Of a DNA stretch of 64,000 nt, positions 5,604-39,150 are shown one piece after another. The notes below the pieces were generated by a model that saw nothing but the letters and a program-made list of their open reading frames with translations, was not told the DNA's origin and made no database searches. This DNA comes from Thermanaeromonas sp. C210 (GTDB lineage Bacteria > Bacillota > DSM-521 > Neomoorellales > Neomoorellaceae). How positions within the stretch are numbered: the stretch's first letter is position 1; the number at the start of each line of letters is the position of its first letter. The stretch is taken from positions 434,001-498,000 of the forward strand of contig NZ_BLWF01000003.1 in assembly GCF_013167955.1 (NCBI RefSeq). Direction: 5' to 3'. Made by a program: the position numbers and the translations under genes.

Positions 5604-5615
5604 ATGCGCAAGTTT

Positions 5616-5845: not shown

Positions 5846-5850
5846 TTAAT

Positions 5851-9889: not shown

Positions 9890-10009
9890 AGGGCTCGGAA
9901 TTCCCGCGGAGCGGGGAGGTCAAACCAGGGGGGCGCCTGCGCGGAGTTAGTTCAATTTGCCGCGCGTCAGGGGGGAATAGGTATTTCGTGCTTCCAAGGG
10001 ACGAGTAAA

Positions 10010-11278: not shown

Positions 11279-11388
11279 ACCCGCGGAGGTGAAACCCTGA
11301 AGGCTTCCTCAACCCTGTGGAAATAACGGGCGCGATGGGATATAATTTGGTTATGGCGTTAACCTTCCGCAGAGGAGGGGAGTAGCTA

Positions 11389-12573: not shown

Positions 12574-12579
12574 ACCTTC

Positions 12580-14055
12580 TTGGCCTATAAGGACCTGCGG
12601 GAATATCTGGATACCCTCACCAAGAAAGGATTGCTGCACCGGGTAACTGTAGAGGTGGATCCGGTGCTGGAAATAGCAGCCATAAGCGACCGGGTAGTGA
12701 AGGCCGGCGGTCCGGCCCTCTTTTTCGAAAGGGTAAAGGGCCATGCCATGCCGGTGGTTACCAATCTTTTCGGCAGTGAAGAGCTGGTCAAGACTGCTTT
12801 GGAGATTGAAAGTTTGGATGAGCCCGCGGCGCGGCTGGCGGAGCTCTTAAGAATACCTGAGGATACCAACTGGTTGTCACGCCTGCAGTATTTACCCAAA
12901 TTGATGGAGGTATCGCGGTTTCTGCCCCGGCGGGTTAAGAGCGCTCCCTGTCAGGAAGTGGTAGTGGACCCACCATCCCTGGCGGAGCTTCCTGTCCTCA
13001 AGCTTTGGCCCCATGATGGGGGCCGGTTCATCACTTTGCCCCTTGTGTTCACCCGGGACCCGCAAACCGGGAGGCGCAACCTGGGCATGTACCGGATGCA
13101 GGTCTTCGATGATCGAACTACCGGCATGCACTGGCACCTCCATAAGGATGCCGCCGAACATTTCTCCCGGGCGGGGGAGAGGCTGGAAGTAGCGGTGGCC
13201 CTGGGAGGTGATCCCGCCCTCATTTATGCCGCCACGGCGCCAGTTCCGCCCGGGATAGACGAGGTAATCCTGGCGGGTTTCTTGAGGCGCGAGCCAGTCG
13301 AAATGGTCCCGGCTCTGACGGTAAACCTGGAGGTGCCCGCTCATGCGGAAATAATTCTGGAGGGTTACGTCGACCTCGGAGAAAGGCGGCTAGAGGGGCC
13401 CTTTGGCGACCATACCGGCTACTATTCTCCCGCCGACTATTACCCCGTTTTTCACCTCACCTGCATGACCCGCCGGAGGGACGCCCTTTATCCGGCTACG
13501 GTAGTAGGCCGGCCTCCTATGGAAGATGCTTTCTTGGGTAAAGTGACGGAAAGGCTTTTCCTGCCTCTGATCCGCCTTATCCTTCCGGAGGTCAGGGATA
13601 TCAACTTTCCCGTAGAAGGTGTTTTCCACAATTGTGCCATTGTTTCCATTGCCAAACGTTATCCCGGCCAGGGGCGAAAAGTGATACACGCCCTATGGGG
13701 CATGGGCCAGATGATGTTTACTAAGTTTTTGATAGTGGTGGATGCCGATGTTAACGTCCACGACCTGGACGAAGTGCGCTGGAAGGTTTTGGGCAATGTG
13801 GACCCGCGGCGTGACACGGTTATTGTAGAGGGTCCCCTTGATGTCCTGGATCACGCCTCCCCCCAGCCGGGGTATGGCGGAAAGATGGGTATCGACGCCA
13901 CGCGCAAACTTCCCGAAGAAGGGCATCCTCGCCCCTGGCCTCTCGAGGCGCGCTCCGACCGTCAAACCCGGGAATTGGTCGTAAGGAGGTGGGAGGAGTA
14001 TGGGCTTTCCCGGGGTCTTCTATCGGAAACTGAATATCTTTTTGGAGATGATTAA
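12580..14055 (+). CDS. UbiD-family decarboxylase, probably menaquinone (MqnL-like)
   Basis: 491 residues, standard UbiD length. These enzymes use prenylated FMN to decarboxylate aromatic acids. Recognisable UbiD segments include the GMYRMQVFD region, MHWHLHKD, the LEGPFGDHTGYYS motif with the catalytic Glu/Asp set, and HNCAIVSIAKRYPGQ. It stands between menG and a UbiA prenyltransferase and overlaps the latter by 56 bases, so it most likely decarboxylates the prenylated naphthoate of the futalosine pathway. That role is from context; no UbiX-type flavin prenyltransferase is visible in the window. Start TTG 12580 follows AGAGGA. Confidence 0.85.
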   Translation: MAYKDLREYLDTLTKKGLLHRVTVEVDPVLEIAAISDRVVKAGGPALFFERVKGHAMPVVTNLFGSEELVKTALEIESLDEPAARLAELLRIPEDTNWLSRLQYLPKLMEVSRFLPRRVKSAPCQEVVVDPPSLAELPVLKLWPHDGGRFITLPLVFTRDPQTGRRNLGMYRMQVFDDRTTGMHWHLHKDAAEHFSRAGERLEVAVALGGDPALIYAATAPVPPGIDEVILAGFLRREPVEMVPALTVNLEVPAHAEIILEGYVDLGERRLEGPFGDHTGYYSPADYYPVFHLTCMTRRRDALYPATVVGRPPMEDAFLGKVTERLFLPLIRLILPEVRDINFPVEGVFHNCAIVSIAKRYPGQGRKVIHALWGMGQMMFTKFLIVVDADVNVHDLDEVRWKVLGNVDPRRDTVIVEGPLDVLDHASPQPGYGGKMGIDATRKLPEEGHPRPWPLEARSDRQTRELVVRRWEEYGLSRGLLSETEYLFGDD

Positions 14056-14869
14056 GTTCGAGCATACCATATTTGCCCTGCCCTTTGCCTACCTCGGGGC
14101 TTTTCTGGCCGCCGAAGGACTGCCAACGGGACACCAGCTCTTCTGGATTACCATGGCCATGATCGGTGCCCGAACCGCAGCCATGTCTTTAAACCGCCTC
14201 ATAGACCGGCACATCGACGCTTTAAATCCCCGCACCGCCGATCGGGCCCTGCCTCGCGGCATCCTTTCCGTCTTTGAAGTCTGGATTTATACGTTCCTCT
14301 CCCTGGGGCTTCTGGTCCTGGCCGCCTTCCAACTCAACGAGCTTTGCGTCCGGCTGCTCCCCCTGGCCGTATTTGTACTGGTAATTTATTCTTATACCAA
14401 ACGTTGGACCTGGGGGTGCCATCTAGTACTAGGCCTGGCAGACAGCCTGGCTCCTATGGGAGCGTGGGTAGCGGTGCGCGCAAGCCTGGATATCCCTGCC
14501 CTTGTACTGGGCATGGGGATGGGTCTCTGGGTGGCCGGCTTTGACATTATCTATGCCTGCCAGGACTACGACTTTGACCGGCGGTACGGTATCCATTCGA
14601 TTCCGGCACGCTTCGGTAAGGACAAAGCCTTGTGGATAGCCCGGGCCTTCCACGGGCTTGCGGTGCTCTGCCTGACTCTTTTGGGCTTTTTTCTCCAACT
14701 GGGAACCGTTTACTTTGCCGGAGTGATAGTAGCGGCGCTGATCCTGGTTCACGAACACCGCCTGGTATCACCTGAGGATCTTTCCCGTATTAATGTAGCC
14801 TTTTTGCAGATGAACGGCTATCTCAGCATGCTTATGTTTGCCTTTACGGTACTGGCGGTGCTCTTATAA
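14000..14869 (+). CDS. UbiA-family prenyltransferase, probably menaquinone (MqnP-like)
   Basis: 289 residues, about eight membrane helices. The two aspartate-rich motifs are present as NRLIDRHIDALNPRT (about residues 62-76) and DFDRRYGIHSIPARFG (about 190-206); these bind Mg-diphosphate of the polyprenyl donor. Start ATG 14000 has GGAGG upstream and lies inside the end of the ubiD-like gene, indicating coupled translation. Both UbiA 4-hydroxybenzoate and MqnP enzymes share this pattern; the thermophilic anaerobe context and the lack of ubiquinone make the menaquinone role more likely. Confidence 0.88.
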   Translation: MGFPGVFYRKLNIFLEMIKFEHTIFALPFAYLGAFLAAEGLPTGHQLFWITMAMIGARTAAMSLNRLIDRHIDALNPRTADRALPRGILSVFEVWIYTFLSLGLLVLAAFQLNELCVRLLPLAVFVLVIYSYTKRWTWGCHLVLGLADSLAPMGAWVAVRASLDIPALVLGMGMGLWVAGFDIIYACQDYDFDRRYGIHSIPARFGKDKALWIARAFHGLAVLCLTLLGFFLQLGTVYFAGVIVAALILVHEHRLVSPEDLSRINVAFLQMNGYLSMLMFAFTVLAVLL

Positions 14870-22990: not shown

Positions 22991-25183
22991 ATGGCCGTAG
23001 ACTTCGACAAGATATATGAGGGCGCTTTGCCGGACGGCAAGATTCCCACCAAACTCTTCCGGGAGGTTTACCACGGAGCGATTACGGCCGTAAGTTATGC
23101 CGAAATCCTCCTGAACAAGGCCATACGGGACTACGGCCCCGATCACCCGGTAGGATATCCCGACACCGCCTATTATTTGCCGGTAATCCGATGCTTTAGC
23201 GGAGAAAAGGTTACCAAGTTGGGAGACCTGCCTCCCATATTAAACCGTAAGAGGGCCCAAATAAAATCCGAGCTTACCTTTGAAAACGCCAGGCTGGCGG
23301 GCGAGGCCACCTGGTATGCGGCCGAGATCATCGAAGCCCTCCGCTACCTCAAGTATAAGCCCGAGGAACCCCTGGCTCCCGAGCCCGGGACCGGCTTCAT
23401 CAGTGACCCTGTAGTGAGGCGTTACGGGGTCAAAATGGTGGACTGGACCATTCCCGGTGAGGCTATTATTTTAGGTCGGGCCAGAGACCCCAAGGCCCTG
23501 GCGAAGATGGTCCAGGAGCTAATGGGCATGGGCTTCATGCTCTTTATCTGCGATGAAGCTGTCGAACAGCTCCTGGAACAGAATGTCAAACTGGGCATCG
23601 ACTATATTGCCTTCCCCCTGGGCAACTTTACCCAGATAGTCCATGCGGCCAACTATGCCTTGCGGGCCGGCATGATGTTTGGCGGGGTTACGCCTGGTGA
23701 CCGCGACGCCCAGCGCGACTATCAGCGCCGCCGCATCCGGGCCTTTGTCCTTTACCTGGGTGAGCGGGACATGGTCAAGACGGCGGCCGCCTTTGGAGCC
23801 ATCTTCACCGGCTTCCCCGTCATCACCGACCAGCCCCTGGCCGAAGATGAGCAAATTCCCGACTGGTTCTTCAGCGTCGAGGATTATAGTAAAATGGTCC
23901 AGATCGCCATGGAGGTCAGAGGAATTAAGCTCACCAAGATCAAGCTCGAGCTGCCCATCAACTTTGGCCCGGCCTTTGAAGGGGAGAGCATCCGCAAGCA
24001 CGATATGTATGTGGAAATGGGCGGGAACCGCAGCCCGGCTTTCGAACTGGCCAGGAGTGTAGGAGAGGCCGACATTACCGACGGCCGCATCGAGGTCATC
24101 GGGCCCGATCTTCCCGATATCCCCGAGGGCAGCGTCCTTCCCTTCGGCCTCCTCGTGGACATCTACGGCCGCAAAATGCAGGAAGACTTCGAAGGCGTCC
24201 TGGAGCGGCGCATCCACGACTTCATTAATTACGGCGAGGGCCTCTGGCATACCGGCCAGCGGAACATCAACTGGCTGCGCATAAGCAAGGACGCCGTAGC
24301 CAAGGGCTTCCGGTTCAAACACATGGGTGAGCTCCTCATCGCCAAAATGAAGGAAGAATTCCCGGCCATCGTAGACCGGGTACAGGTCACCATAATCACC
24401 GAAGAGGACAGAGTCCGGCAGGAAATGGAGAAGGCTAAAGAAAAATATAAGAAGCGCGACGACCGCATGCGGGGACTGACCGACGAGGCCGTGGACACCT
24501 TCTACTCTTGCGTCCTCTGCCAGTCCTTTGCCCCTAACCACGTATGCATAGTGACTCCCGAGCGAGTGGGCCTGTGCGGGGCGGTGACCTGGCTCGATGC
24601 CAAAGCGTCGTACGAAATCAACAGCGCCGGACCCAATCAGCCCATTCCCAAAGGAGGGGAAATAGACCCCATAAAGGGTATCTGGAAGAGCGTCAACGAC
24701 TACCTCTACAGTGCCTCCAACCATACCCTGGAGCAGGTATGTCTTTACACCCTCATGGAGAATCCCATGACTTCCTGCGGGTGTTTCGAAGCCATCATGG
24801 CGGTGGTGCCCGAACTCAACGGCATTATGATCACTACCCGCGACCATACGGGCATGACTCCTTCCGGCATGACCTTCTCCACCCTGGCGGGTATGATCGG
24901 CGGCGGGGTGCAGACTCCCGGCTTCATGGGCATCGGCCGGAGCTACATTGTAAGCAAGAAGTTCATCAAGGCTGACGGCGGCATCGCCCGTATAGTCTGG
25001 ATGCCCAAATCCCTAAAAGAATACTTGCGGGAAGACCTCGTCCGGCGAAGCGTCGAGGAAGGCCTGGGGGAAAAGTTCATCGACCAGATCGCCGACGAAA
25101 CGGTGGGCACCACAGTGGAAGAAATACTGCCCTTCCTGGAGGAAAAGGGTCACCCGGCCCTCACTATGGACCCCCTCCTGTAG
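22991..25183 (+). CDS. acsB: Acetyl-CoA synthase
   Basis: 730 residues, the bacterial full-length form with the N-terminal CODH-binding domain. It joins CO, the methyl group from the corrinoid protein and CoA. The A-cluster cysteines are visible as CVLCQSFAPNHVC, GLCGAV and TSCGCFE, the last providing the Cys-Gly-Cys that holds the distal nickel. Sequence is very close to what I know of the Moorella protein. Next is a 90-base gap with a GC-rich hairpin (CCGGGG 25204-25209, CCCCGG 25221-25226) that could tune expression of the genes below relative to CODH/ACS. Confidence 0.97.
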   Translation: MAVDFDKIYEGALPDGKIPTKLFREVYHGAITAVSYAEILLNKAIRDYGPDHPVGYPDTAYYLPVIRCFSGEKVTKLGDLPPILNRKRAQIKSELTFENARLAGEATWYAAEIIEALRYLKYKPEEPLAPEPGTGFISDPVVRRYGVKMVDWTIPGEAIILGRARDPKALAKMVQELMGMGFMLFICDEAVEQLLEQNVKLGIDYIAFPLGNFTQIVHAANYALRAGMMFGGVTPGDRDAQRDYQRRRIRAFVLYLGERDMVKTAAAFGAIFTGFPVITDQPLAEDEQIPDWFFSVEDYSKMVQIAMEVRGIKLTKIKLELPINFGPAFEGESIRKHDMYVEMGGNRSPAFELARSVGEADITDGRIEVIGPDLPDIPEGSVLPFGLLVDIYGRKMQEDFEGVLERRIHDFINYGEGLWHTGQRNINWLRISKDAVAKGFRFKHMGELLIAKMKEEFPAIVDRVQVTIITEEDRVRQEMEKAKEKYKKRDDRMRGLTDEAVDTFYSCVLCQSFAPNHVCIVTPERVGLCGAVTWLDAKASYEINSAGPNQPIPKGGEIDPIKGIWKSVNDYLYSASNHTLEQVCLYTLMENPMTSCGCFEAIMAVVPELNGIMITTRDHTGMTPSGMTFSTLAGMIGGGVQTPGFMGIGRSYIVSKKFIKADGGIARIVWMPKSLKEYLREDLVRRSVEEGLGEKFIDQIADETVGTTVEEILPFLEEKGHPALTMDPLL

Positions 25184-25273
25184 TTTGAACCGTTAAGCGC
25201 CGACCGGGGGCGGCTTCCGGCCCCGGCGAAGCTGTAATCTCACTTCTCGGTGGTTAGAAAGGGGTTATAAGCC

Positions 25274-26611
25274 ATGGGTCTTACTGGACTGGAGATTTAC
25301 AAGCAGCTCCCCAAGAAAAACTGCGGCGAATGCGGCACACCTACTTGTCTGGCCTTTGCCATGAACCTGGCAGCCGGCAAGGCCACCCTGGACTCCTGCC
25401 CTTACGTTACCCCCGCTGCCCGGGAGGCCCTGGAATCGGCTTCCGCCCCGCCTATTGCCAAAATAATTCTGGGCACTGGTGAAAGGGCGGTAGAGATGGG
25501 GGACGAAACCGAACTGTTCCGCCATGACAAGCGGTTCTACCATGAGCCCGTTATAGCCGTTGAGGTCAGCGACGCCCTGCCAGAAGAGGAGATCTTACAC
25601 AAAATCAGGAGCATAAATGACCTGGTCTTTGAGCGCGTAGGCCAGCGCTACCAGGTGGAGGCCATTGCCGTAGCGCACCAGGCTTCCGGGGCGGATGCCT
25701 TTGCGAGAGCCGTAAGCCTGGTTGCAGCTAACAGCCCCTTGAACCTGGTGCTGGTCGCGGAGGACCCGGCGGTCATGAAGGCGGCCTTACCGGCCGTTGC
25801 TGACCGTAAACCCCTGATCTATGCCGCCAACGCCGCCAATTACGAGGCCATGACCGGCCTCGCCAAAGAGCATGAATGTCCCCTGGCGGTCAAGGGCGGC
25901 AACCTGCAGGAGCTGGCGGACGTGGTAGATAAGATTACGGCCGTGGGGTACAAACAACTGGTGCTGGATCCCGGCGCTCGTGAGGTTTCCCGCGCCATTG
26001 CCGATTTCACCCAAATCCGGCGGCAGGCCATCAAGAAGCGCTTCCGCACCTTCGGCTATCCTCTTATGGCCTTCACCACGGCGGAAGATCCTCTCATGGA
26101 GGTGCTGGAGGCCGTAGATTACATTGCCAAGTATGCCAGCCTGGTCGTGCTCAAGACGGCCGCCAAGGCCCATCTACTGCCGTTGCTCTCTTGGAGGCAG
26201 AACCTGTACACCGATCCCCAGGTACCTATCCGGGTAGAGGAAAAGATTTACGAGATCGGCGAGGTCAACGAGAATTCTCCGGTCTACATCACCACCAACT
26301 TCTCCCTCACCTACTACTCCGTGGAAGGCGAGGTGGAGGCCAGCCGGATACCCAGCTTCATCATCCCGGTGGACACCAACGGGCTTTCTGTCTTGACCGC
26401 CTACGCCGACGGCAAGTTCGAGGCGGAAAAGATAGCCGGGGTCATGAAGAAGTTGGGCATCGAAAATAGGGTCCGACACCGGACGGTAGTAATACCGGGC
26501 ACTGTGGCGGTGCTGAAGGGGAAGCTGGAGGAACTCACCGGCTGGACGGTGCTCGTGGGACCGCGGGAGGCTTCGGGCATTCCCTCCTTTGCCCGCAGCC
26601 AGTTTGCCTAA
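25274..26611 (+). CDS. acsC: Corrinoid iron-sulfur protein, large subunit
   Basis: 445 residues. The N-terminal [4Fe-4S] motif KNCGECGTPTCLAFAMNL plus a following DSCPYV cysteine is the CFeSP large-subunit hallmark, used to reduce Co(II). A TIM-barrel middle and a C-terminal B12-binding part follow. With AcsD it carries the methyl group from AcsE to AcsB. Start ATG 25274 follows AGAAAGGGG. Confidence 0.96.
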   Translation: MGLTGLEIYKQLPKKNCGECGTPTCLAFAMNLAAGKATLDSCPYVTPAAREALESASAPPIAKIILGTGERAVEMGDETELFRHDKRFYHEPVIAVEVSDALPEEEILHKIRSINDLVFERVGQRYQVEAIAVAHQASGADAFARAVSLVAANSPLNLVLVAEDPAVMKAALPAVADRKPLIYAANAANYEAMTGLAKEHECPLAVKGGNLQELADVVDKITAVGYKQLVLDPGAREVSRAIADFTQIRRQAIKKRFRTFGYPLMAFTTAEDPLMEVLEAVDYIAKYASLVVLKTAAKAHLLPLLSWRQNLYTDPQVPIRVEEKIYEIGEVNENSPVYITTNFSLTYYSVEGEVEASRIPSFIIPVDTNGLSVLTAYADGKFEAEKIAGVMKKLGIENRVRHRTVVIPGTVAVLKGKLEELTGWTVLVGPREASGIPSFARSQFA

Positions 26612-26643
26612 AATAGCCGTTCCTTCAAGGAGGCCGAGATAGC

Positions 26644-28578
26644 TTGCAGCAATACACGGTGACCTTTTCACCGGATAATGTACGGGCTACGGTCCCGGCC
26701 GGAACCAGTATTTTGGAGGCGGCGTCCCGGGCAGGAATAGCTCTGAAGAGCACCTGCGGCGGCCAGGGTACCTGTAAGCGCTGTATAGTACAGGTAAAGG
26801 ATGGGCAGGTAACCTGTGAGCGGGACCCTCTGCCGGAAACTTTGCGGGGGGAAGGCTACACCCTGGCCTGCCAAACTAAGGTGTGGGGCCATGTCACCGT
26901 TGAAATACCCCCTGAAGCCCGCCTGGCCAAGCACCGGGTTCTCCTGCAGGACGAGGCGCCGGCTTCTGAAGCGGGGGCGGCAGAGGAGCTTTTAGGGGGG
27001 CGCCCCTTCCAGCCCCTGTGCGAAGCGGTAAACCTGCAGCTTGACCCGCCTACCCTCACCGAAAACGCCAGCGACTGGCACCGCCTGCGGGGTGCCCTGC
27101 GCCGGCATAGGCCGGAAGAATATTCTACTATCGGTCTCCCAAGCCTGCGTGAGCTGGCCGAAAGCCTGCGCCGGGCGGACTGGCAGGTGAAGGTAGTCCT
27201 GGCGCAATTAAAAGGAGCCAGTGAAGTAATCAGGGTAGCCCCGGCCGACAGCGGGGGGGTCTACGGCCTGGCCGTAGACCTTGGTACTACCACCGTGGCT
27301 GCCGCCCTGGTAGATCTTGCAGCAGGAGAGGTGCTAGGCCAGGCGGGGACCTACAACCGGCAGGCCCGCTTTGGTGATGATATCATCTCCCGCGTTATCC
27401 ATGCGACCGGCGAAGAGGGGGGACTAGAGGAGCTCCGGGAGGCGGCCCTGGCCAGCATCAACGAAGTGGCGGCCGAGCTTGTAGAGAAGTGCGGGATTGC
27501 GCCGGAGGAGGTGGTGGTGGCGACCCTGGCGGGCAACACCACCATGAGCCATCTCTTTCTGGGCCTTACCCCTAAATACATCCGACTGCAGCCTTATATC
27601 CCCACTACGGCGGAATATCCCATTGTGCGGGCCTGGGAAGCGGGGTTAAATATTCACCCCGCGGCTCCGGTCCTGGTATTCCCGTCGGTGGCCAGTTATG
27701 TGGGGGGCGACATCGTTTCCGGAACCCTCTTTACGCGTCTTAGCGAAAGCGACGAGCTGGTGCTTTTCGTGGATATCGGCACCAATGGGGAAATGGTGCT
27801 GGGTAATAGAGAATGGCTGATGGCCTGTGCCTGCTCTGCCGGGCCTGCCTTTGAGGGCGGCGGCATCACTTGCGGCATGAGGGCCATGCAGGGCGCCATC
27901 GAAAGGGTAGAGGTCGACCCGGCCACATCAGAAGTAAGGGTAAAGGTTATCGGCAACACCAAACCCGTGGGCATCTGCGGCTCGGGGTTGATCGATGCCC
28001 TGGCCAAGCTGCGCCGGGCAGGAATCCTCGACCGCATGGGGAATTTTGTCCCCGAAAGGGCCGGCAGGCGGCTGCGGCGGGGAGAAGACGGATATGAATT
28101 CGTCCTTGCCTGGAAGGAGGAAAGCGGAACCGGGAAAGACATCACCCTGACGGAGGGGGATGTCAAGAATCTTATCCGCTCCAAGGGGGCGGTCTTTGCC
28201 GGCATTCAGAGCCTTTTAAAGACCCTGGAGTTGCAACTGGAAGCCATAGACAAGATCATTATCGCCGGGGGTTTTGGTAATTATCTCAACATCCCCAACG
28301 CCATCGAGATCGGCCTCTTACCCGACCTGCCGCCCGAAAAATACCAGTTTGCCGGCAACACCTCCCTCAAAGGGGCCATCCAGGTGCTCCTTTGCCGGCA
28401 GGCGTGGGAAGAGGCTCTGGAGATCGGCCGCAAAATGAGCTATCTGGAGCTTTCAGCCGGCAACCTCTTTATGGAAGAATTCGTATCAGCCCTGTTCCTG
28501 CCCCACACCAATCTGGAGCTGTTCCCCTCCCTTGCAGGGGAAAGGGAAGGGGGGAGTAATCATTGGCCCGGAGCATAG
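26644..28578 (+). CDS. Reductive activator of corrinoid protein (RACo-like, ASKHA ATPase)
   Basis: 644 residues. N-terminal [2Fe-2S] ferredoxin domain (KSTCGGQGTCKRC, then LACQ near residue 78), a linker, and a C-terminal ASKHA ATPase (DLGTTTVAAALVDL, later GGGITCGMRAMQGAIE and IIAGGFGNYLN). It reactivates the corrinoid protein by ATP-driven reduction of Co(II) after accidental oxidation. This corresponds to the old orf7 between acsC and the second cooC in Moorella. Start TTG 26644; the 3' end overlaps the next gene by 16 bases. Confidence 0.92.
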   Translation: MQQYTVTFSPDNVRATVPAGTSILEAASRAGIALKSTCGGQGTCKRCIVQVKDGQVTCERDPLPETLRGEGYTLACQTKVWGHVTVEIPPEARLAKHRVLLQDEAPASEAGAAEELLGGRPFQPLCEAVNLQLDPPTLTENASDWHRLRGALRRHRPEEYSTIGLPSLRELAESLRRADWQVKVVLAQLKGASEVIRVAPADSGGVYGLAVDLGTTTVAAALVDLAAGEVLGQAGTYNRQARFGDDIISRVIHATGEEGGLEELREAALASINEVAAELVEKCGIAPEEVVVATLAGNTTMSHLFLGLTPKYIRLQPYIPTTAEYPIVRAWEAGLNIHPAAPVLVFPSVASYVGGDIVSGTLFTRLSESDELVLFVDIGTNGEMVLGNREWLMACACSAGPAFEGGGITCGMRAMQGAIERVEVDPATSEVRVKVIGNTKPVGICGSGLIDALAKLRRAGILDRMGNFVPERAGRRLRRGEDGYEFVLAWKEESGTGKDITLTEGDVKNLIRSKGAVFAGIQSLLKTLELQLEAIDKIIIAGGFGNYLNIPNAIEIGLLPDLPPEKYQFAGNTSLKGAIQVLLCRQAWEEALEIGRKMSYLELSAGNLFMEEFVSALFLPHTNLELFPSLAGEREGGSNHWPGA

Positions 28579-29312
28579 CCGTAGCCGGCAAAGGGGGTAC
28601 CGGCAAGACCACCTTTGCAGCTCTGACCATCCGCTACCTGGTGGAGCACAACAAAGGAAATATTTTGGCCGTTGATGCCGACCCCAACGCCAATCTCAAC
28701 GAAGCCCTGGGCCTGGAGGTAAACACCTACATTGCCGATATCCTGGAGGACACCAAGAATCCAAAGGCCGTACCGCCGGGAATGAGCAAAGACATGTTCG
28801 TGGAATACAAGCTGGCCCAGGCCCTGGTCGAAGCGGAAAAACTGGATCTATTGGTCATGGGCCGCCCCGAGGGACCCGGGTGCTACTGCTATCCCAATGA
28901 CTTACTGCGCAAACACCTGGAGACCCTGGCCCACAACTACGGGTATATGATCATCGACAGCGAGGCCGGCCTGGAGCACATCAGCCGCCGGATTATCCAA
29001 AACGTGGATGACCTCTTTATTATGAGCGATGCCTCCGTCCGCGGCCTTCGCTCGGCATCCCGCATACGCCAACTGGTCGAAGAGATGGCCTTGCCCATTA
29101 AAAGGCTTTTCCTGGTGGTAACTAAAACGGCCAACGGTTTGGGTTCCTTACAGAGAGAGGTGGAGCGCACGGGATTGACCCTGGCGGGAACCCTGCCCTA
29201 CGATCCCCTGGTGGTGGAATACGACGCCATGGGTACGCCCCTTTTCCGGCTCCCTCCCGACGCGGCGGCGGTGCGGAAGGCTTGGGAAATCCTCGACAAG
29301 GTAGGTCTGTAG
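28563..29312 (+). CDS. acsF: CooC/AcsF-type maturation ATPase for acetyl-CoA synthase
   Basis: 249 residues, MinD-like: AGKGGTGKTTFAAL, DADPNANLNEALG, and the metal-binding Cys-x-Cys in GPGCYCYPND. The C-terminal half keeps the SEAGLEHISR switch II. In acetogens this second copy is linked to nickel loading of ACS rather than CODH; the assignment follows from position between RACo and acsD. Start TTG 28563 lies inside the end of the RACo gene. A short tandem repeat follows it (29319-29345). Confidence 0.87.
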   Translation: MARSIAVAGKGGTGKTTFAALTIRYLVEHNKGNILAVDADPNANLNEALGLEVNTYIADILEDTKNPKAVPPGMSKDMFVEYKLAQALVEAEKLDLLVMGRPEGPGCYCYPNDLLRKHLETLAHNYGYMIIDSEAGLEHISRRIIQNVDDLFIMSDASVRGLRSASRIRQLVEEMALPIKRLFLVVTKTANGLGSLQREVERTGLTLAGTLPYDPLVVEYDAMGTPLFRLPPDAAAVRKAWEILDKVGL

Positions 29313-29365
29313 TTTTGGCCGTGGTGAATCTGACCGTGGTGAATCCAGGAAAGGAGTGACCTTTC

Positions 29366-31139
<1,774 letters not shown>

Positions 31140-31179: not shown

Positions 31180-31725
31180 TTGGGAGAAATCAGGGACCCG
31201 CAACCGCTCCGGTGGGTAGGAGAGTACTCCGGCCAGCCGGTCGAACGATGCTTCCAATGTCATAAATGCAGCGGTGGGTGCCCGGTAGCAGGGACCATGG
31301 ATATCCTGCCCCACCAGATTATACGCTGCCTTCACCTGGGGCTGGAGGAAGAACTCCTCGGCAGTAGGGCCATCTGGCTCTGTACTTCCTGCCGTACATG
31401 TAAAGCCAGATGCCCCAACGGGATTGATATAGCTGCCGTAAACGACGCCCTCAGGGCGAGAGTCTTAGCCCGGGGCCTGCGGCCGGCCCTCCCGGCTGTG
31501 GCCGATTTTCATCGTCAATTCCTTGCTTCGGTAGAAAAGAACGGGCGCGTCCATGAACTCGGCATGATGGTGGCCTACAAATTAAAAATCCGGAATTACC
31601 TCCAGGACGTTCCCTTGGGGATAAAGATGCTGGCCCGCGGCAAGTTTAGACTGCTGCCCGAGCGCATCCGCGGCCAAAAGGAAATCCGCACTCTCTTTAC
31701 AAAAGCCCGAGGTGAACAGCGATGA
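31180..31725 (+). CDS. hdrC: HdrC-like heterodisulfide reductase subunit
   Basis: 181 residues with two [4Fe-4S] motifs: CFQCHKCSGGCPV and CTSCRTCKARCPN. HdrC carries electrons between HdrA and HdrB in the soluble flavin-based bifurcating Hdr modules. Here it starts the hdrCBA-mvhD-metVF set, which in Moorella co-purifies as one complex with methylene-THF reductase. Start TTG 31180; the stop overlaps the hdrB start by 4 bases. Confidence 0.9.
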   Translation: MGEIRDPQPLRWVGEYSGQPVERCFQCHKCSGGCPVAGTMDILPHQIIRCLHLGLEEELLGSRAIWLCTSCRTCKARCPNGIDIAAVNDALRARVLARGLRPALPAVADFHRQFLASVEKNGRVHELGMMVAYKLKIRNYLQDVPLGIKMLARGKFRLLPERIRGQKEIRTLFTKARGEQR

Positions 31726-32597
31726 AGGTCAGTTATTATCCCGGCTGCTCCCTCCAATCCACCGCATCGGAGTACGGGGCGTCCACCGAGGCCGTTCTTG
31801 AGGCCCTGGGTATTACCGTCAAAGAGCTCCCCGACTGGAACTGCTGCGGAGCCACTTCCGGCCACGCAGTATACCCCGATCTTCACCAAGCCCTTTCCTT
31901 CCGCAATTTGGTGATAGCCGAAGGCGAGGGCCTTGACCTCGTGGTGCCCTGCGCCGCCTGCTACAACGCCCTCCGCTCCACCCAGGAAGCGCTGGCCGGT
32001 GGGGGCCCGGAAGCCCGGAGGCTGAAAGAGGAGATGGAGGACCTCCTAGGCCGCCAGTACCAGGGCAAGGTGCGGGTGCTTCATATCCTTGAGTTTTTGG
32101 CCCGAGAAGAAGTGGGGGAACTTATATCCGCACGCATGCGCATACCCCTTTCCGGATTGAAACTAGCAGCTTATTACGGTTGCCTCCTTACCCGGCCGCC
32201 CAGGACGGTGAGCTTCGAAACCAATCCCGAACAGCCGCGCCTCATGGACACCCTGTTGGCCCGGCTGGGGAGCCAACCGGTTTCGTGGAGTCACAAGACG
32301 GAATGTTGCGGCGCCAGCCTTTCCATACCCGCACCGGAGATCGTTTACAACCTGGTGGGGAAAATCATCCAGGCGGCCCGCAGGGCCGGGGCCGACGCCA
32401 TCGTGACGGCCTGCCCCCTATGCCAGACCAACCTGGACGGCCGCCAGCCGGAGGGGGAGAAGATCCCGGTATTTTTCCTCACCGAATTAGTGGGAGTGGC
32501 CCTGGGGTTGACCCCCCATGCCTGGCTGCGCAAACACCTCGTCGACGCCCGTCCTCTGCTCAAGGCCCGTAATCTCTTAACTGCGGCCCAGGCCTAA
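31722..32597 (+). CDS. hdrB: HdrB-like heterodisulfide reductase subunit
   Basis: 291 residues with two CCG domains. The first shows YYPGCSLQSTASEYG and NCCGATSGH, the second AYYGCLLTRPP and ECCGASLSI, each giving the Cys-Cys-Gly pattern that binds the noncubane [4Fe-4S] clusters of HdrB. In methanogens that site reduces CoM-S-S-CoB; acetogens have no such substrate, so the partner here must differ, perhaps electron transfer to MetFV. It is translationally coupled to hdrC. Confidence 0.9.
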   Translation: MKVSYYPGCSLQSTASEYGASTEAVLEALGITVKELPDWNCCGATSGHAVYPDLHQALSFRNLVIAEGEGLDLVVPCAACYNALRSTQEALAGGGPEARRLKEEMEDLLGRQYQGKVRVLHILEFLAREEVGELISARMRIPLSGLKLAAYYGCLLTRPPRTVSFETNPEQPRLMDTLLARLGSQPVSWSHKTECCGASLSIPAPEIVYNLVGKIIQAARRAGADAIVTACPLCQTNLDGRQPEGEKIPVFFLTELVGVALGLTPHAWLRKHLVDARPLLKARNLLTAAQA

Positions 32598-32619: not shown

Positions 32620-35600
32620 TTGCCGAATAACGGGCTGAAGAAGGAAAAAGAAAACCCGGAAGTGGTGGGTTCAGTTTTGGTGGCCGGCGGCGGTATTGCC
32701 GGTATGCAGGCCGCCCTGGACCTGGCCAATGCCGGTTATCTCGTTCACCTGGTAACCGAATCGCCCTCCATTGGGGGGAAAATGACCCAGCTGGACAAGA
32801 CTTTTCCCACCAACGAATGCGCCATGTGCCTGCTGGGTCCCCGCATGACCGACACATTAAATCACCCCAATATTCGCCTCTACACCTGTTCTTCCCTGGA
32901 GGGCGTCGAGGGCAGTCGCGGCAACTTTAAAGTTCGCATCCGCCAGCGCCCGCGGTATGTTAACATCGAAGAATGCACGGCCTGCGGCGACTGCGAACAG
33001 GTATGCCCTGTACAGCTGCCCAACGAGTTCAACGAGGGCCTGGGGGAACGCAAGGCCATATACAAGCTCTTCCCCCAGGCCGTACCCAACAAGTATTTGA
33101 TAGAGAAGCGGGGCATACCTCCCTGCCGCAGCACCTGCCCGGCAGGCACCAACGCCCAGGGGTATGTGGCCCTCATTTCCCAGGGCAAATTCGCCGAAGC
33201 CCTGGAGGTCGTCCGGCGGCGCATGCCCTTTGCCGGGATCTGCGGCCGCATCTGCCATCACCCGTGTGAGGTCGAATGCAACCGTGGCCAGTATGACGAT
33301 CCCGTGGCCATCGCCCTTCTGAAACGTGCGGCCTACGACTTCGGCTGGGAAGAGGCCGCCGCAAAGGAAAGAGAAACCTACCGTCCCCGGGCCGTGCGGT
33401 CGGAAAAGGTGGCCGTAGTGGGGGCCGGTCCGGCAGGCCTTACGGCGGCCCAGGACCTGGCCTTGGAGGGATACCAGGTCACGTTATACGACGCGTTGGC
33501 CGATCCGGGCGGCATGATGAGGAGCGCCATCCCGCACTACCGCCTGCCCCGGGAAGTGGTTGACCGGGAGACCAGGCGCATCCTGGACCTTGGAATCGAA
33601 TTTATCCCCAACACCCGGGTGGGGAAGGACCTTCCCTTTGAAGAGCTCCTCAGCCGCTACGACGCCGTAATCCTTGCCGTAGGGCTGCAGCAGAGCCGGC
33701 CCCTAGAGGTACCGGGTGCTGACCTGGACGGCGTCCTGCCCGGCTTGGACTTCCTCCGTCAAGTAGCCCTGGGCCACGAGGTCAAAGTAGGCCGGCGGGT
33801 AGTGGTTATCGGCGGCGGCAATGTGGCCATGGACGTGGCCCGTACGGCCCGGCGCCTGGGAGCGGATGAAGTCCACGTGGCCTGCCTAGAATCCCGCGAG
33901 GAAATGCCGGCCCACCCCTGGGAAATCGAAGACGCCCTGGAAGAAGGCATTTTGCTGCACACCTCCCGGGGGCCCAAGGGCTTCCGGGGAGAGGACGGCC
34001 GGGTGAGCGGCGTAGAGCTCATGGAGTGCACCCGGGTCTTTGACGAAGAAGGACGCTTTAACCCCCAGTACAACCCGGCGGCAACCGAAGTCCTGCCGGC
34101 CGATACGGTCATCGTAGCCATAGGCCAGGCGGCCGACCTCTCCTTCCTGGGAGAGGACAGCGGGGTCCGGGTGGACCGCGGCCTTATTGCGGTCGACCCC
34201 CTAACCCTCGCCACCTCCCGGCCGGGCGTCTTTGCCTGCGGGGATGCAGTGAGGGGAGCCGGTTCCGTGGTGGAAGCGGTGGCCTCGGGGCATGAGGCCG
34301 CCGAAAGCGTTAGACGCTACCTCAACAGTGAAGACTTGGCCCGGGGGCGGAGCCAGGCCAAGGCGGAGAAACTGGGCCCACCGGAAAAAATCGTCCCCTT
34401 CCCGGGCCGGAGAGTCCCTCAGGATATGGCTTCCCCGTCTGAAAGGATTAAGGACTTCCGGGAAGTGGGCCGGGGATACACCAGGGAAGAGGCCATGGCC
34501 GAGGCCAAACGCTGCTTAAACTGCGGTATCTGTTCCGAGTGCCTGCAGTGCGAGGCGGTATGTAAGAAAAAGGCGGTCGAACACTGGCAACAAGAGGAGT
34601 GGCAGGAACTGCAGGTAGGCAGCATAATCCTGGCCCCGGGATATGAGCTCTTCGATGCCGAACTGGCCGGGGAGTATGGCTACGGCTATTATCCTAATGT
34701 TATCACCAGTATGGAATTTGAGCGGCTTTTGAGCTCCACCGGCCCCACCCAGGGCCATGTGGTGCGGCCTTCGGACGGCGAGGCCCCGCGGAAGGTGGCC
34801 TTTATCCAGTGCGTCGGCTCCCGGAACTGTGAGGGCGAGGGCAGTCCCTACTGCTCGGCGGTCTGCTGCATGTACTCCACCAAAGAAGCCATTATTGCCC
34901 GGGAACATGATGCCAACATCGAGCCCACCATCTTCTACCTGGACATGCGGTCCTACGGGAAGAACTTCGATAAGTACGTGGAAGGAGCCAAAAAGGCCGG
35001 GGTTCGCTACGTGCGGGCCATGGTTTCGCGGGTGGAAGAGGACCCCGTCACCCATAATCTATTTATCCAGTATGTGGACGGCAATAAACTGGTGCGGGAG
35101 GAATTCCATCTAGTGGTTCTGGCGGTGGGCGTCCGGCCCCCGCAAGAAGCGGCCAGGCTGGCGCGGGTATGCGGCATCGAGCTTAACCGTTACGGTTTTG
35201 CCTTCACCCCGGAATGGAATCCCGTAGCCACCAGCCGTGACGGAATTTACGTAGCCGGCATGTTCCAGGGGCCTCGGGATATTCCCGAAACGGTGATAAA
35301 TGCCAGCGCGGCGGCGGCCTGCGCCGGCGCCTATCTGGCCCCGGCCCGCAACACCCTTGTTAAGCCGAAGGAATACCCGCCGGAACGTGATGTGGGCCGG
35401 GAGGAGCCGCGGGTAGGGGTCTTCATCTGCCACTGCGGCATTAACATTGCCGGCGTGGTGGATGTCAGGGACGTGGTGGAGTTTGCCCGCCGCCTCCCCG
35501 GGGTGGTCCACGTGGAGGACAACCTCTACACCTGCTCCCAGGACACCCTGAAGAAGATGCAAGAGGTTATCCAGGAACACCGCCTGAACCGCGTAGTGGT

Positions 35601-37101
35601 GGCCTCCTGCACCATTCGCACCCACCAACCCCTCTTCCGCGAAACCTTAAGGGAGGCGGGACTTAATCCCTTCTACTTCGAGATGGCCAACATCCGCGAC
35701 CAGTGCTCCTGGGTTCACCGCGGCGAACCGGCCAATGCAACCGAGAAAGCCAAGGATCTCGTCCGCATGGCGGTGGCTAAGGTCAAGACCCATGAGGCCC
35801 TCCACCTCAATCCCGTGCCGGTGGTGCCCCGGGCCCTGGTCATCGGCGGCGGCGTGGCCGGGCTGACGGCCGCCCTCGATATAGCCGAGCAGGGTTACGA
35901 AGCCTACCTGGTGGAACGGGAGCCGGAGCTGGGAGGTTTTGCCCGGAACTTGCGGTTCAGCCTAGAGGGGAGCGACGTCCAGGCCTACCTTCGGGACCTC
36001 ATACAAAAGGTCCGGTCCCACCTGCGCATACAGGTCTTCACCGGTGCGCGGCTGGAAGATTTCGGCGGTCACCAGGGCCACTTCATCACCACCATTTCCT
36101 TGGCCCAGCCCGGCAAAGGCCCCCTCCGTACTACCGTAAAACTGGAGCACGGCGTGGTCATCGTGGCCACCGGCGTCCGAGAGATCGCCACCGACGAATA
36201 TCTCCGGGGCCAGGACGAACGCGTGCTTACCAATACTGAACTGGAGCAGGCCCTCGCCTCCGGCAGCTGGAACCCTCGGGCCAACAAAGAAGTAGTCTTC
36301 ATCCAGTGTGTGGGTTCCCGGGAGCCCGGGCGCCTCTACTGCAGCCGGACCTGCTGTGCCCAGTCCCTGAAAAATGCCCTGCGCATCAAGGAGCTCAACC
36401 CCGAGGCCAAGGTTTATATCCTCTACCGGGATATCCGCACTTACGGTTTTATGGAGGATTACTACCGCCTGGCCCGGGAGAAGGGGATTCTCTTCATCCC
36501 CTTTGAACCGGAGCGGAAACCCGTGGTGCGCCGGAGGGATATAGGCCTGCTGGAAGTTGAGGTAACCGACCCCTCTTCGGGGAAAACCGTCCTGCTGTGG
36601 CCGGATCAGTTGGTACTGGCTACGGGGGCAGCGGCGCCGGAGGGCATCGAAGAGCTGGCTACCCTCCTCAAGGTGCCCCTTAACGAGGATAATTTCCTAG
36701 TGGAAACCCATGCTAAACTGTCGCCCATCGACTTCCCCTCGGCGGGCATATTCCTGTGCGGTGCCGCCCATTCTCCCAAATTCCTGGCCGAGGCCGTAGC
36801 CCAGGCCAAAGGCGCTGTAGCCCGGGCCTGCACCATACTATCCAAAGAGAACCTGATGGTCGGCGGAGTAGTGGCCGTAGTAGAGGAGGGCAAATGCGCC
36901 GCCTGCCTTACCTGCGTCCGGGTATGCCCCTACGGAGTACCCCGGATAAACGAGCGCAACGTGGCCGAGATCAGCGCCGTCCAGTGCCAGGGGTGCGGGA
37001 CCTGCGCCGCCGAATGCCCGGCCAAGGCCATCCAGCTTCAGCACTATAAGGACCACCAGCTCCTGGCCAAGGTAGCAGGCCTCTTTGAGGAGGTGTCCTA
37101 G
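32620..37101 (+). CDS. hdrA: Giant HdrA: two HdrA modules with an inserted GltD-like NAD(P)H domain
   Basis: 1493 residues, about twice a methanogen HdrA. Order: N-terminal HdrA flavin fold (GGGIAGMQA at about 23-31) with ferredoxin motif CTACGDCEQVCP (about 119-130); a Fer4_20 plus GltD-like unit (about 165-600; CRSTCPAGTNAQ, VAVVGAGPAGLTAAQ, GGGNVAMDVARTARRLGA); cysteine cluster CLNCGICSECLQCEAVC (about 635-655) and the rest of the first HdrA with CVGSRNCEGEG; a second HdrA (CHCGINIAGVVDV, GGGVAGLTAALDIAEQGY, CVGSREPG); and two C-terminal [4Fe-4S] motifs. At least three flavin folds imply a bifurcation hub taking electrons from NAD(P)H. Start TTG 32620. No frameshift seen. Confidence 0.93.
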   Translation: MPNNGLKKEKENPEVVGSVLVAGGGIAGMQAALDLANAGYLVHLVTESPSIGGKMTQLDKTFPTNECAMCLLGPRMTDTLNHPNIRLYTCSSLEGVEGSRGNFKVRIRQRPRYVNIEECTACGDCEQVCPVQLPNEFNEGLGERKAIYKLFPQAVPNKYLIEKRGIPPCRSTCPAGTNAQGYVALISQGKFAEALEVVRRRMPFAGICGRICHHPCEVECNRGQYDDPVAIALLKRAAYDFGWEEAAAKERETYRPRAVRSEKVAVVGAGPAGLTAAQDLALEGYQVTLYDALADPGGMMRSAIPHYRLPREVVDRETRRILDLGIEFIPNTRVGKDLPFEELLSRYDAVILAVGLQQSRPLEVPGADLDGVLPGLDFLRQVALGHEVKVGRRVVVIGGGNVAMDVARTARRLGADEVHVACLESREEMPAHPWEIEDALEEGILLHTSRGPKGFRGEDGRVSGVELMECTRVFDEEGRFNPQYNPAATEVLPADTVIVAIGQAADLSFLGEDSGVRVDRGLIAVDPLTLATSRPGVFACGDAVRGAGSVVEAVASGHEAAESVRRYLNSEDLARGRSQAKAEKLGPPEKIVPFPGRRVPQDMASPSERIKDFREVGRGYTREEAMAEAKRCLNCGICSECLQCEAVCKKKAVEHWQQEEWQELQVGSIILAPGYELFDAELAGEYGYGYYPNVITSMEFERLLSSTGPTQGHVVRPSDGEAPRKVAFIQCVGSRNCEGEGSPYCSAVCCMYSTKEAIIAREHDANIEPTIFYLDMRSYGKNFDKYVEGAKKAGVRYVRAMVSRVEEDPVTHNLFIQYVDGNKLVREEFHLVVLAVGVRPPQEAARLARVCGIELNRYGFAFTPEWNPVATSRDGIYVAGMFQGPRDIPETVINASAAAACAGAYLAPARNTLVKPKEYPPERDVGREEPRVGVFICHCGINIAGVVDVRDVVEFARRLPGVVHVEDNLYTCSQDTLKKMQEVIQEHRLNRVVVASCTIRTHQPLFRETLREAGLNPFYFEMANIRDQCSWVHRGEPANATEKAKDLVRMAVAKVKTHEALHLNPVPVVPRALVIGGGVAGLTAALDIAEQGYEAYLVEREPELGGFARNLRFSLEGSDVQAYLRDLIQKVRSHLRIQVFTGARLEDFGGHQGHFITTISLAQPGKGPLRTTVKLEHGVVIVATGVREIATDEYLRGQDERVLTNTELEQALASGSWNPRANKEVVFIQCVGSREPGRLYCSRTCCAQSLKNALRIKELNPEAKVYILYRDIRTYGFMEDYYRLAREKGILFIPFEPERKPVVRRRDIGLLEVEVTDPSSGKTVLLWPDQLVLATGAAAPEGIEELATLLKVPLNEDNFLVETHAKLSPIDFPSAGIFLCGAAHSPKFLAEAVAQAKGAVARACTILSKENLMVGGVVAVVEEGKCAACLTCVRVCPYGVPRINERNVAEISAVQCQGCGTCAAECPAKAIQLQHYKDHQLLAKVAGLFEEVS

Positions 37102-37103
37102 CT

Positions 37104-37556
37104 TTGGCGGAATTCGAGCCCAAAATAGTAGCCTTTTGCTGTTACTACTGCGCCTATTCGGCGGCCGACCTTGCCGGTTCCCTGCGCCTCCAGTACCCGG
37201 CCAACGTGCGCCTGATCGAGTTCCCCTGCACCGGAAAGGTAGACGTAAGAGTCCTCCTGGGGGCCTTCGAAGAAGGAGCCGACGGTGTATATGTGGCCGG
37301 CTGCCTCGAGGGGGACTGTCACTTCCTCAAGGGCAACATCCGGGCCAGAAAGCGGGTGGAATACACCAAAAAACTCCTTGACGAAATCGGCATCGGGGGC
37401 GAGCGCCTGGAAATGTACAACTTATCCAGCTCCATGGGGCCGCGCTTTGCCGAAATCGCCCGGGAATTCACCGAAAGAATTAAAAGCCTGGGGCCCAGTC
37501 CCCTGAACCGGGGTTATTTCCCCACAAAGGAAGAAAAGGCGGGTGAGCAAACGTGA
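37104..37556 (+). CDS. mvhD: MvhD-like [2Fe-2S] electron-transfer subunit
   Basis: 150 residues of the MvhD/FrhD family. Conserved cysteines appear in VAFCCYYCAYSAADLAG, EFPCTGKVD and AGCLEGDCHFLKGN. In methanogens MvhD links the Mvh hydrogenase to HdrA; no hydrogenase is encoded here, so it most likely links HdrA to MetFV. Start TTG 37104, two bases after the hdrA stop; its end overlaps metV by 4 bases. Confidence 0.9.
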   Translation: MAEFEPKIVAFCCYYCAYSAADLAGSLRLQYPANVRLIEFPCTGKVDVRVLLGAFEEGADGVYVAGCLEGDCHFLKGNIRARKRVEYTKKLLDEIGIGGERLEMYNLSSSMGPRFAEIAREFTERIKSLGPSPLNRGYFPTKEEKAGEQT

Positions 37557-38221
37557 TTGTAGCGGAACCCAAGCCTCTAGCGGAGGTAGCAGACCTGATC
37601 GGGGAGGCCCGCAAGATTCTGGTAGTGGGCTGTGGGGGCTGTGTCACGGTTTGCCTGGCCGGGGGGGAAAAAGAGACCGGAATCCTGGCCGCCAGCCTGC
37701 GCATGCTGCGCAAGAAAGAAGGGAAGAGCCTGGAAACCGTAGAAGTAACCCTCACTCGCCAGTGCGACCCCGAATACGTGCAACTCCTGGATAAATACGT
37801 AACGGAAGATGTGGAATGTATCGTTTCCCTGGCCTGCGGGGTGGGCGTCCAGTTCCTGGCCGAGCGCTTTAACAAATGGGTGGTGCCGGCCCTCAATACC
37901 AAGTTCGCCGGGGGCGCCGTAGAACACGGGGTGTGGGAGGAGCGCTGCGGGCTATGCGGCGAATGCATCCTCCATAAGACAGGCGGTATCTGCCCCATAA
38001 TCCGCTGCTCCAAAAGCCTGCTGAACGGCCCCTGCGGCGGTTCCCAGGGAGGCAAATGTGAAGTAAATCCTGACATTCCCTGTGCCTGGCAACTTATCTA
38101 CGAGCGCCTGAGCGCCTTGGGCAAGCTTGACCTCCTCCTGGAGATTCAGCCGCCCAAGGACTGGTCTAAAGCCCGCGACGGCGGCCCGCGCAAAGTGGTA
38201 CGAGAGGATGTGAGGATGTAA
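37553..38221 (+). CDS. metV: MetV, zinc/FeS partner of methylene-THF reductase
   Basis: 222 residues. The C-terminal half has the MetV cysteine set (CGLCGECILHKTGGICPI, CSKSLLNGPCGGSQGGKCE, IPCAW), which holds FeS/Zn sites; the N-terminal half carries GCGGCVTVCLAGG. MetV forms the core heterodimer with MetF in acetogens that lack the RnfC2 subunit type. GTG 37553; the stop shares one base with the metF start. Confidence 0.9.
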   Translation: MIVAEPKPLAEVADLIGEARKILVVGCGGCVTVCLAGGEKETGILAASLRMLRKKEGKSLETVEVTLTRQCDPEYVQLLDKYVTEDVECIVSLACGVGVQFLAERFNKWVVPALNTKFAGGAVEHGVWEERCGLCGECILHKTGGICPIIRCSKSLLNGPCGGSQGGKCEVNPDIPCAWQLIYERLSALGKLDLLLEIQPPKDWSKARDGGPRKVVREDVRM

Positions 38222-39150
38222 TGGGCTTGAAAACGGAGAGCAGACTGGAGCGCCTCCTTTCCCAGGGCCATTTCGTGGTAAGCGGCGAGATCGGACCGCC
38301 CAAACACGCCTCGCCCGAAGGCATCCTGCACCATGCCGAGCTCCTCAAAGACTATGTGGATGCGGCCAACCTGACCGACAACCAGACGGCCATTGTACGC
38401 ATGTCCAGTATGGCTGCCGCCGTACACGTGCTGCGGGCCGGAGTAGAGCCCATCATGCAGATGACCGTACGGGACCGCAACCGGATCGCCCTGCAGAGCG
38501 ATCTCCTAGGGGCCTACAGCCTGGGCATCCGTAACGTCCTCTGCCTCACAGGGGACCACCAGTCCTTCGGCAACCACCCTACGGCGAAGAACGTCCATGA
38601 TGTCGACTCCATCCAGCTCCTGAAGATCGTCAAGGATATGCGGGACGACCGAAAATTTGCCTGCGGGGAAGAAATCAAGGAGCATGAGCCACGCTTTTTC
38701 ATCGGGGCCGCAGCCAATCCCTTTGCCGACCCCTTTGAATTCCGGGTCCTCCGCCTGGAGAAAAAGATCAAGGCCGGAGCCGACTTTATCCAGACCCAAT
38801 GTATTTTCGATATGGAGCGCTTTGAACGCTTTATGGCCCTGGTCAGGGAGCGCGGCCTCCACAAGAAAGCTTATATCCTGGCCGGCGTCATGCCCCTCAA
38901 GTCGGCCAAGGCCGCCCGGTACATGCAAAAATCCGTGGCGGGCATGGTCGTCCCCGACGAGATCGTGGCCCGCATGGAAAAGGCCTCCGACCCCCGGACC
39001 GAGGGAGTGGCCATATGCGTTGAACAGATCAAGCACCTGCGAACTATCGAAGGAGTGGCCGGGGTCCACATCATGGCCGTCATGTGGGAAGACATCATTC
39101 CCATCATTGTGAAAGAGGCCGGTTTGTATCCACGGCCTTCAGCCCATTAA
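38221..39150 (+). CDS. metF: 5,10-methylenetetrahydrofolate reductase
   Basis: 309 residues, FAD-binding TIM barrel making methyl-THF for AcsE. Visible are the N-terminal GEIGPPKHASPE segment, LTDNQTAIVRMS and the folate/flavin segment NVLCLTGDHQS. It is the last gene of the pathway operon. With HdrABC-MvhD-MetV it forms the six-subunit complex described in Moorella, in which the exergonic methylene-THF reduction is thought to be coupled to a second electron acceptor. Confidence 0.95.
   Translation: MGLKTESRLERLLSQGHFVVSGEIGPPKHASPEGILHHAELLKDYVDAANLTDNQTAIVRMSSMAAAVHVLRAGVEPIMQMTVRDRNRIALQSDLLGAYSLGIRNVLCLTGDHQSFGNHPTAKNVHDVDSIQLLKIVKDMRDDRKFACGEEIKEHEPRFFIGAAANPFADPFEFRVLRLEKKIKAGADFIQTQCIFDMERFERFMALVRERGLHKKAYILAGVMPLKSAKAARYMQKSVAGMVVPDEIVARMEKASDPRTEGVAICVEQIKHLRTIEGVAGVHIMAVMWEDIIPIIVKEAGLYPRPSAH

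Follow-up and report, generated by a model that had tools for sequence, protein, structure and literature searches.

The HdrA protein of Thermanaeromonas sp. C210 with an inserted GltD-like module, and the probable exchange of its NAD(P)H cassette among homologues

Introduction

Research on acetogenesis has yet to settle how the reduction of methylene-tetrahydrofolate (methylene-THF) is powered, and by which carrier. The question is raised by the hdrA gene of Thermanaeromonas sp. C210 (genome size 2.68 Mb), which encodes a protein of 1493 residues in the same operon as metV and metF and lies in a stretch of 64,000 nucleotides (contig NZ_BLWF01000003.1, positions 434,001 to 498,000) termed the window in the following. 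A preceding interpretation made from the letters alone (the sequence-only reading) had regarded the protein as two HdrA units combined with a GltD-like module for NADH or NADPH (the reduced nicotinamide adenine dinucleotides, together NAD(P)H), by which NAD(P)H electrons would enter the MetFV complex directly. We consider it very likely that HdrA is an NADH-fed relay into MetFV with an exchangeable cassette of NADH or NADPH type.

Domain organization of HdrA

The open reading frame (ORF) of hdrA begins 22 nt past the stop codon of hdrB, is preceded by a purine-rich stretch, and contains no internal stop. The HdrA2-type profile of NCBIfam matches across the HdrA parts, and the GltD-like profile PRK12771 matches residues 157-666 above its curated cut-off (566 bits versus 516). 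A phmmer comparison with the HdrA of M. thermolithotrophicus (5odc; 654 aa) matched four blocks: residues 44-165 correspond to 171-292 of 5odc, 638-854 to 293-511, 928-1105 to 2-179, and 1345-1491 to 503-652. HdrA unit 1 thus comprises the core binding flavin adenine dinucleotide (FAD) and the inserted ferredoxin domain, but neither the CHCG N-terminus nor the C-terminal ferredoxin, whereas unit 2 lacks the inserted ferredoxin and possesses the CHCG N-terminus, the FAD core, and the C-terminal ferredoxin. Two complete HdrA copies are ruled out, since each unit is devoid of a part present in the other.

The GltD module is situated at the boundary between positions 292 and 293 of 5odc, i.e., within the inserted ferredoxin domain of unit 1, and separates its two cysteine clusters (C119-129 and C632-648). 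It is recognizable as GltD/PRK12771-like by the profile score, by GAGPAG and GGGNVA, and by the cysteines of its Fer4_20 domain (C169/173/212/216/220). The protein contains four dinucleotide motifs, three of FAD type and one of NAD(P)H type (GGGIAG 23-28, GAGPAG 268-273, GGGNVA 398-403, GGGVAG 1076-1081). The two HdrA units, the GltD-like module, the Fer4_20 domain (residues 167-244), and the position of the GltD part inside the first HdrA, past its N-terminal FeS motif, were hence rightly seen in the sequence-only reading, in which only three dinucleotide-binding folds had been counted. Concerning the two CHCG/CVGSR signatures that it assumed, CVGSR does occur twice (731-735, 1230-1234), but CHCG is found only once (937-940).

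The architecture itself was rejected as a novelty, because it has already been described for the HdrA of M. thermoacetica by Oppinger et al. 2022 (PMC9430772). Regarding structures, no chain with the whole architecture was found in the PDB, either by sequence search or by a fold search with an AlphaFold model of residues 1-921 (mean predicted local distance difference test, pLDDT, 79; predicted template modelling score, pTM, 0.66); the hits were either HdrA chains or GltD-type chains.

Conservation of flavin, cluster, and bifurcation residues

In an alignment of 102 full-length sequences (Thermanaeromonas HdrA and 101 homologues), each of the four dinucleotide motifs keeps its glycines invariant or nearly so, and the same applies to almost all of the cluster cysteines. 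The FAD residues, including those of the inserted module, for which the sequence-only reading had called for a count of intact sites, are thus intact. As these residues are near-invariant, and about 100 full-length homologues exist, an origin of hdrA by chance, frameshift, or faulty assembly is ruled out. Within the same family, full-length homologues are mostly 74-81% identical from end to end (one 69%), and named Moorella records hold a homologue of 77% identity.

Glutamate and lysine occupy in both units the positions (356 and 409 in 5odc) that characterize bifurcating HdrA. The pair of unit 1, E701/K755, is kept in 102 and 100 of the 102 sequences, respectively, that of unit 2, E1209/K1251, less strictly (62 and 84). 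Two homologues (L087, L092) carry Glu in place of the unit 1 lysine and are possibly non-bifurcating relatives, as judged from this exchange.

Residue K235 aligns with StnC K170 (8oh5_C), a lysine that coordinates the FAD-proximal cluster in the Sporomusa Stn transhydrogenase; the FAD of StnC is described as non-bifurcating, and NfnB possesses Glu at this position (PMC10482914). Because of this correspondence, the GltD FAD is probably an entry flavin here, not a bifurcating one. Among the homologues, residue 235 is Lys in 78, His in 21, and Glu in 2, a variation that may tune the FAD-proximal cluster.

The codon of C70 is replaced by an in-frame TGA (motif CAMU or CTMU) in a number of homologues, mostly from Desulfobacterota (L055, L061, L066-L068, L076, L088, L096, L098, L099, L102-L104, L109, L113-L115, L117, L119, L122), and gene callers therefore truncate their N-terminus. 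The homologue in L109 is moreover split across two ORFs (840 and 580 aa), owing to a sequencing error, a frameshift, or a gene that is split as such. The Thermanaeromonas genome itself contains another, smaller HdrA (about 675 aa; C4:381851-384240, loci L001 and L007-L010) with its own MvhD. Both genes have an in-frame TGA, which in this HdrA lies in a CSAU motif equivalent to C70, and as a tRNA-Sec (selenocysteine tRNA) was found in the genome, both proteins are probably selenoproteins.

Coenzyme motif

In the AlphaFold model, strand beta-2 of the NAD(P)H domain extends over residues 417-421 and ends directly before the motif CLES. GltD-type chains of NADP-linked enzymes (9n5u, 8oh5, 9bov, 4ylf, 5jca) exhibit YRR where Thermanaeromonas HdrA has CLE, such that the NADPH-type motif after beta-2 is absent from the latter. 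The basic residues of YRR are taken to bind the 2'-phosphate of NADPH, and NADH is usually favoured where the residue is acidic instead. Among the aligned chains, StnC (8oh5_C) binds NADPH (PMC10482914). As CLES stands in place of YRR, the coenzyme of Thermanaeromonas HdrA is predicted to be NADH, a point on which the sequence-only reading had left the choice between NADH and NADPH open. This agrees with the oxidation of NADH by Moorella HdrA, reported with benzyl viologen as acceptor (190 U/mg; PMC9430772); Moorella stamsii and M. mulderi possess CLES too.

Two motif classes and exchange of the cassette

A scan of a species-level genome collection yielded at least 80 loci, nearly all with matches over almost the whole query. 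The matches listed come mostly from Desulfobacterota metagenome bins; the others include named Bacillota, Chloroflexi, Planctomycetota, and Acidobacteria, among other groups. The residues where beta-2 ends place most of the 102 sequences in one of two classes, defined after inspection of the alignment: xLEx (54, including Thermanaeromonas and Moorella) and YRRx (46). From these motifs, the xLEx class (LE) is predicted to be of NADH type and the YRRx class (YRR) of NADPH type.

The class is scattered on the tree of the HdrA backbone and clustered on that of the GltD module. With all 102 rows (FastTree), the HdrA parts require 20 class changes, at least 16 of which are forced by well-supported branches, whereas the GltD tree, calculated after removal of residues 412-440, still groups by class and requires three. 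Within GltD, the FAD pieces alone give 12 changes and the NAD subdomain alone two. A more careful tree of 40 sequences contains 12 changes (11-13 among bootstraps; 10 forced), with clustering no greater than for shuffled labels, and rejects a single LE clade (approximately unbiased test, p = 9e-42). Likewise, a tree of unit 2 only has 15 changes in 50 rows and is not clustered beyond shuffling, compared to six when the GltD part of these 50 rows is used.

Pairwise identities exhibit the same pattern: Closely related pairs that differ in class are 55-87% identical over most of the HdrA cores versus 36-50% in the NAD domain, whereas distant pairs of the same class can reach 80% or more in the GltD part at about 50% in unit 2. 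Concerning paralogues, genome G067 has three copies, one LE and two YRR (L158/L105), the latter being 83-93% identical in GltD and 52-68% in the HdrA parts. Both classes occur together in 7 of the 12 multi-copy genomes compared (G061, G063, G067, G068, G075, G076, G078), and in L117 two full-length HdrA-GltD genes of different class, one LE and one YRR, adjoin in opposite orientation (1691-5941 on the minus and 9163-13410 on the plus strand). In a small tree, stand-alone LE-type GltD proteins of other Bacillota are placed among the embedded ones.

Given the scatter on the backbone tree and the clustering on the GltD tree, the NAD(P)H cassette has probably been exchanged repeatedly inside the gene, by which its coenzyme would have been retuned. 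It seems improbable that the scatter arose instead by convergent substitution within one inherited GltD module. A few substitutions can change coenzyme specificity, but the classes also differ outside the motif, at many columns and by an indel of three residues at 467-469, the GltD tree without the motif groups by class and does not match the backbone tree, and same-genome paralogues share GltD but not the backbone; convergent point mutation is thus disfavoured. Still less credible are assembly chimaeras as the source of the discordance between the trees: Most homologues do stem from metagenome-assembled genomes (MAGs), yet in many unrelated assemblies the breaks affect one and the same domain within an open reading frame, and the isolate Desulfotruncus arcticus DSM 17038 (L059) has an LE copy and a YRR paralogue in one genome.

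On balance, we favour the view that the cassette of the Hdr-type methylene-THF reductase is a swappable NADH/NADPH unit, exchanged at least ten times and sometimes between paralogues of one genome, so that bacteria could retune the coenzyme pool driving the methyl branch of the Wood-Ljungdahl pathway. As the cassette would move independently, coenzyme use could then not be read from HdrA phylogeny. If the classes hold, Moorella-type enzymes with CLES should use NADH, those of Thermincola (YRRS) and of several sulfate reducers NADPH, and some genomes should carry both coenzyme classes. Outside Mock et al. 2014 and Appel et al. 2021, no earlier mention of a coenzyme-class split was found in targeted literature searches.

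MetFV is linked to 46 LE loci and missing from one, and linked to 27 YRR loci and missing from eight; no conclusion is drawn from these counts, as the MetFV-free cases are confined to a few clades. One locus titled as an Acetobacteraceae MAG (L045; HdrA 59% identical) contains a Bacillota-like acs-hdr-met cluster; its bin label looks wrong or the contig misbinned.

Proposed electron path and alternatives

According to the proposed path, the FAD of the GltD insert would accept a hydride from NADH, and from this FAD single electrons would pass via the clusters of GltD and of the split ferredoxin domain to the FAD of unit 1 with its bifurcation residues E701 and K755, then from unit 1 to unit 2, to HdrC, HdrB, and MvhD, and finally to MetV and MetF. 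The direct entry of NAD(P)H electrons claimed by the sequence-only reading fits the sequence and the benzyl viologen activity in Moorella; NADH-driven methylene-THF reduction, however, was not observed for the Moorella complex (PMC13040438), for which a further carrier has been proposed, either ferredoxin/flavodoxin (PMC5861303) or menaquinol (PMC13040438).

Several points weigh against an NADH-fed relay with an exchangeable cassette. The AlphaFold model is of moderate quality, contains no cofactors, and is ill-defined at around residues 55-68 and 152-166. The tie between LE and NADH goes back to one biochemical data point, and YRR as a mark of NADPH inside HdrA is a prediction. Finally, GxGxxA, as in GGGNVA, reads as NADP-like by the classic Gly/Ala fingerprint; as GGGNVA is identical in both motif classes, it is uninformative on the coenzyme, and the fingerprint was rejected as a test of specificity.

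Concerning the third carrier, confurcation, in which NADH and menaquinol would jointly reduce methylene-THF and the complex would be part of a redox loop, deserves serious if tentative consideration. It has been proposed for Moorella (PMC13040438), MqnC is found above cut-off in the genome and RnfC is not, and an MqnP-like prenyltransferase is encoded in the window at 14075; on the other hand, the operon revealed neither a quinone-binding subunit nor a membrane anchor, and quinone genes serve other respiratory enzymes too. Bifurcation, the original proposal (summarised in PMC5861303), by which NADH would reduce methylene-THF together with a low-potential ferredoxin or flavodoxin, appears rather unlikely. 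Both units do possess the residues tied to bifurcating HdrA flavins, but ferredoxin is reported not to act (PMC13040438, PMC6895022), and the GltD insert occupies the ferredoxin-reducing domain, an arrangement argued to block ferredoxin access in archaeal type III HdrA (PMC12054007). A plain conduit from NADH to methylene-THF without any third carrier is doubtful: The transfer would be downhill (-320 mV to -200 mV; potentials from PMC6895022), yet no such transfer was observed with the Moorella complex, and both unit 1 bifurcation residues are kept in 100 of the 102 homologues.

Gene order and genomic setting

The gene order is acsB-acsC-acsV-(MinD/CooC-like ATPase)-acsD-acsE-hdrC-hdrB-hdrA-mvhD-metV-metF (Table 1). 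The genes hdrCBA-mvhD-metVF form a single same-strand cluster, as expected for a type IV (Hdr-type) methylene-THF reductase. Futalosine-pathway menaquinone genes are situated at 14075-14815 of the window (MqnP-like) and at C3:366710-369647 (MqnC and a paralogue).

Table 1. Positions of the operon genes and of the HdrA features in the window
Feature	Position	Strand	Remarks
acsB, acsC, acsV, MinD/CooC-like ATPase, acsD, acsE	22991..31139	+	Wood-Ljungdahl operon context
hdrC	31180..31725	+	domain/family profile matches
hdrB (CCG domains)	31722..32597	+	domain/family profile matches
hdrA, whole ORF	32620..37101	+	1493 aa; TTG start
HdrA unit 1, first half of FAD domain	32665..32955	+	GGGIAG 23-28; C67xxC70; from alignments
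Cys70	32827..32829	+	in-frame TGA (selenocysteine) here in many Desulfobacterota homologues
First 4Fe-4S motif of inserted ferredoxin domain	32974..33006	+	C119-C129
Inserted GltD/PRK12771-like module	33115..34512	+	residues 166-631
Fer4_20 domain	33118..33351	+	residues 167-244; C169, C173, C212, C216, C220, K235
GltD FAD motif GAGPAG	33421..33438	+	
NAD(P)H-binding subdomain	33781..34074	+	residues 388-485; follows coenzyme class most closely
GGGNVA nucleotide motif	33811..33828	+	residues 398-403
CLES	33883..33894	+	residues 422-425, right after beta-2; takes the place of YRRT/S of NADPH-linked GltD modules
Six-cysteine stretch	34513..34563	+	C632-C648; includes second motif of split ferredoxin domain
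HdrA unit 1, C-terminal FAD core	34540..35319	+	E701 (34720-34722), K755 (34882-34884), CVGSR 731-735
HdrA unit 2, N-terminal domain	35401..35826	+	sole CHCG (937-940)
HdrA unit 2, FAD core	35827..36864	+	E1209 (36244-36246), K1251 (36370-36372), CVGSR 1230-1234; without inserted ferredoxin
C-terminal two-cluster ferredoxin	36895..37017	+	C1426-C1466
mvhD	37104..37556	+	domain/family profile matches
metV	37553..38221	+	
metF	38221..39150	+	domain/family profile matches

Comparison with known systems

The HdrA of M. thermolithotrophicus (5odc_A) shares with the protein studied here the FAD core, the inserted ferredoxin, and the pair E356/K409, but consists of a single unit of 654 residues with one CHCG and one FAD and without GltD. 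Among archaeal HdrA of methane metabolisers, classified in 2025, type II possesses two thioredoxin reductase-like (TrxR) domains and type III an inserted GltD (PMC12054007). The Thermanaeromonas chain has its GltD domain at the inserted ferredoxin domain, as in type III, and not the single TrxR-like core of that type but two FAD cores, as in type II; unlike the archaeal proteins it joins both features, is linked to MetFV, and is bacterial.

StnC (8oh5_C) and the NfnABC chains 9bov_A and 9n5u_A resemble the inserted module in their GltD fold, FAD, and Fer4_20 clusters (K235 corresponding to StnC K170), whereas they carry YRR and are parts of NADP-linked transhydrogenases, in which the fusion partners are domains other than HdrA. 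In Bacillota relatives, the LE-type GltD proteins that stand alone (L179-L182; ORFs of 595-823 aa) have a NAD domain with CLES or CLEK and about 54-57% identity to that of Thermanaeromonas HdrA, but not the double-HdrA chain.

The organization of Thermanaeromonas HdrA is most similar to that of M. thermoacetica, with which it shares the domain order, the operon neighbours, the four bifurcation residues, CLES, and about 76% end-to-end identity (L022). Numbered from its first Met, the latter homologue has E696, K750, E1204, and K1246 and a mass of about 163 kDa, in agreement with the published residues and size of M. thermoacetica HdrA (PMC9430772). Apart from the other genus within the same family, no difference in kind was found; with a mass of around 160 kDa, the GltD insert, and two TrxR-like cores, the protein matches the HdrA of the type IV methylene-THF reductase and is an orthologue of the published Moorella protein. 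Its architecture thus adds one orthologue to a published case; what is new is the split into predicted coenzyme classes and the probable exchange of the cassette.
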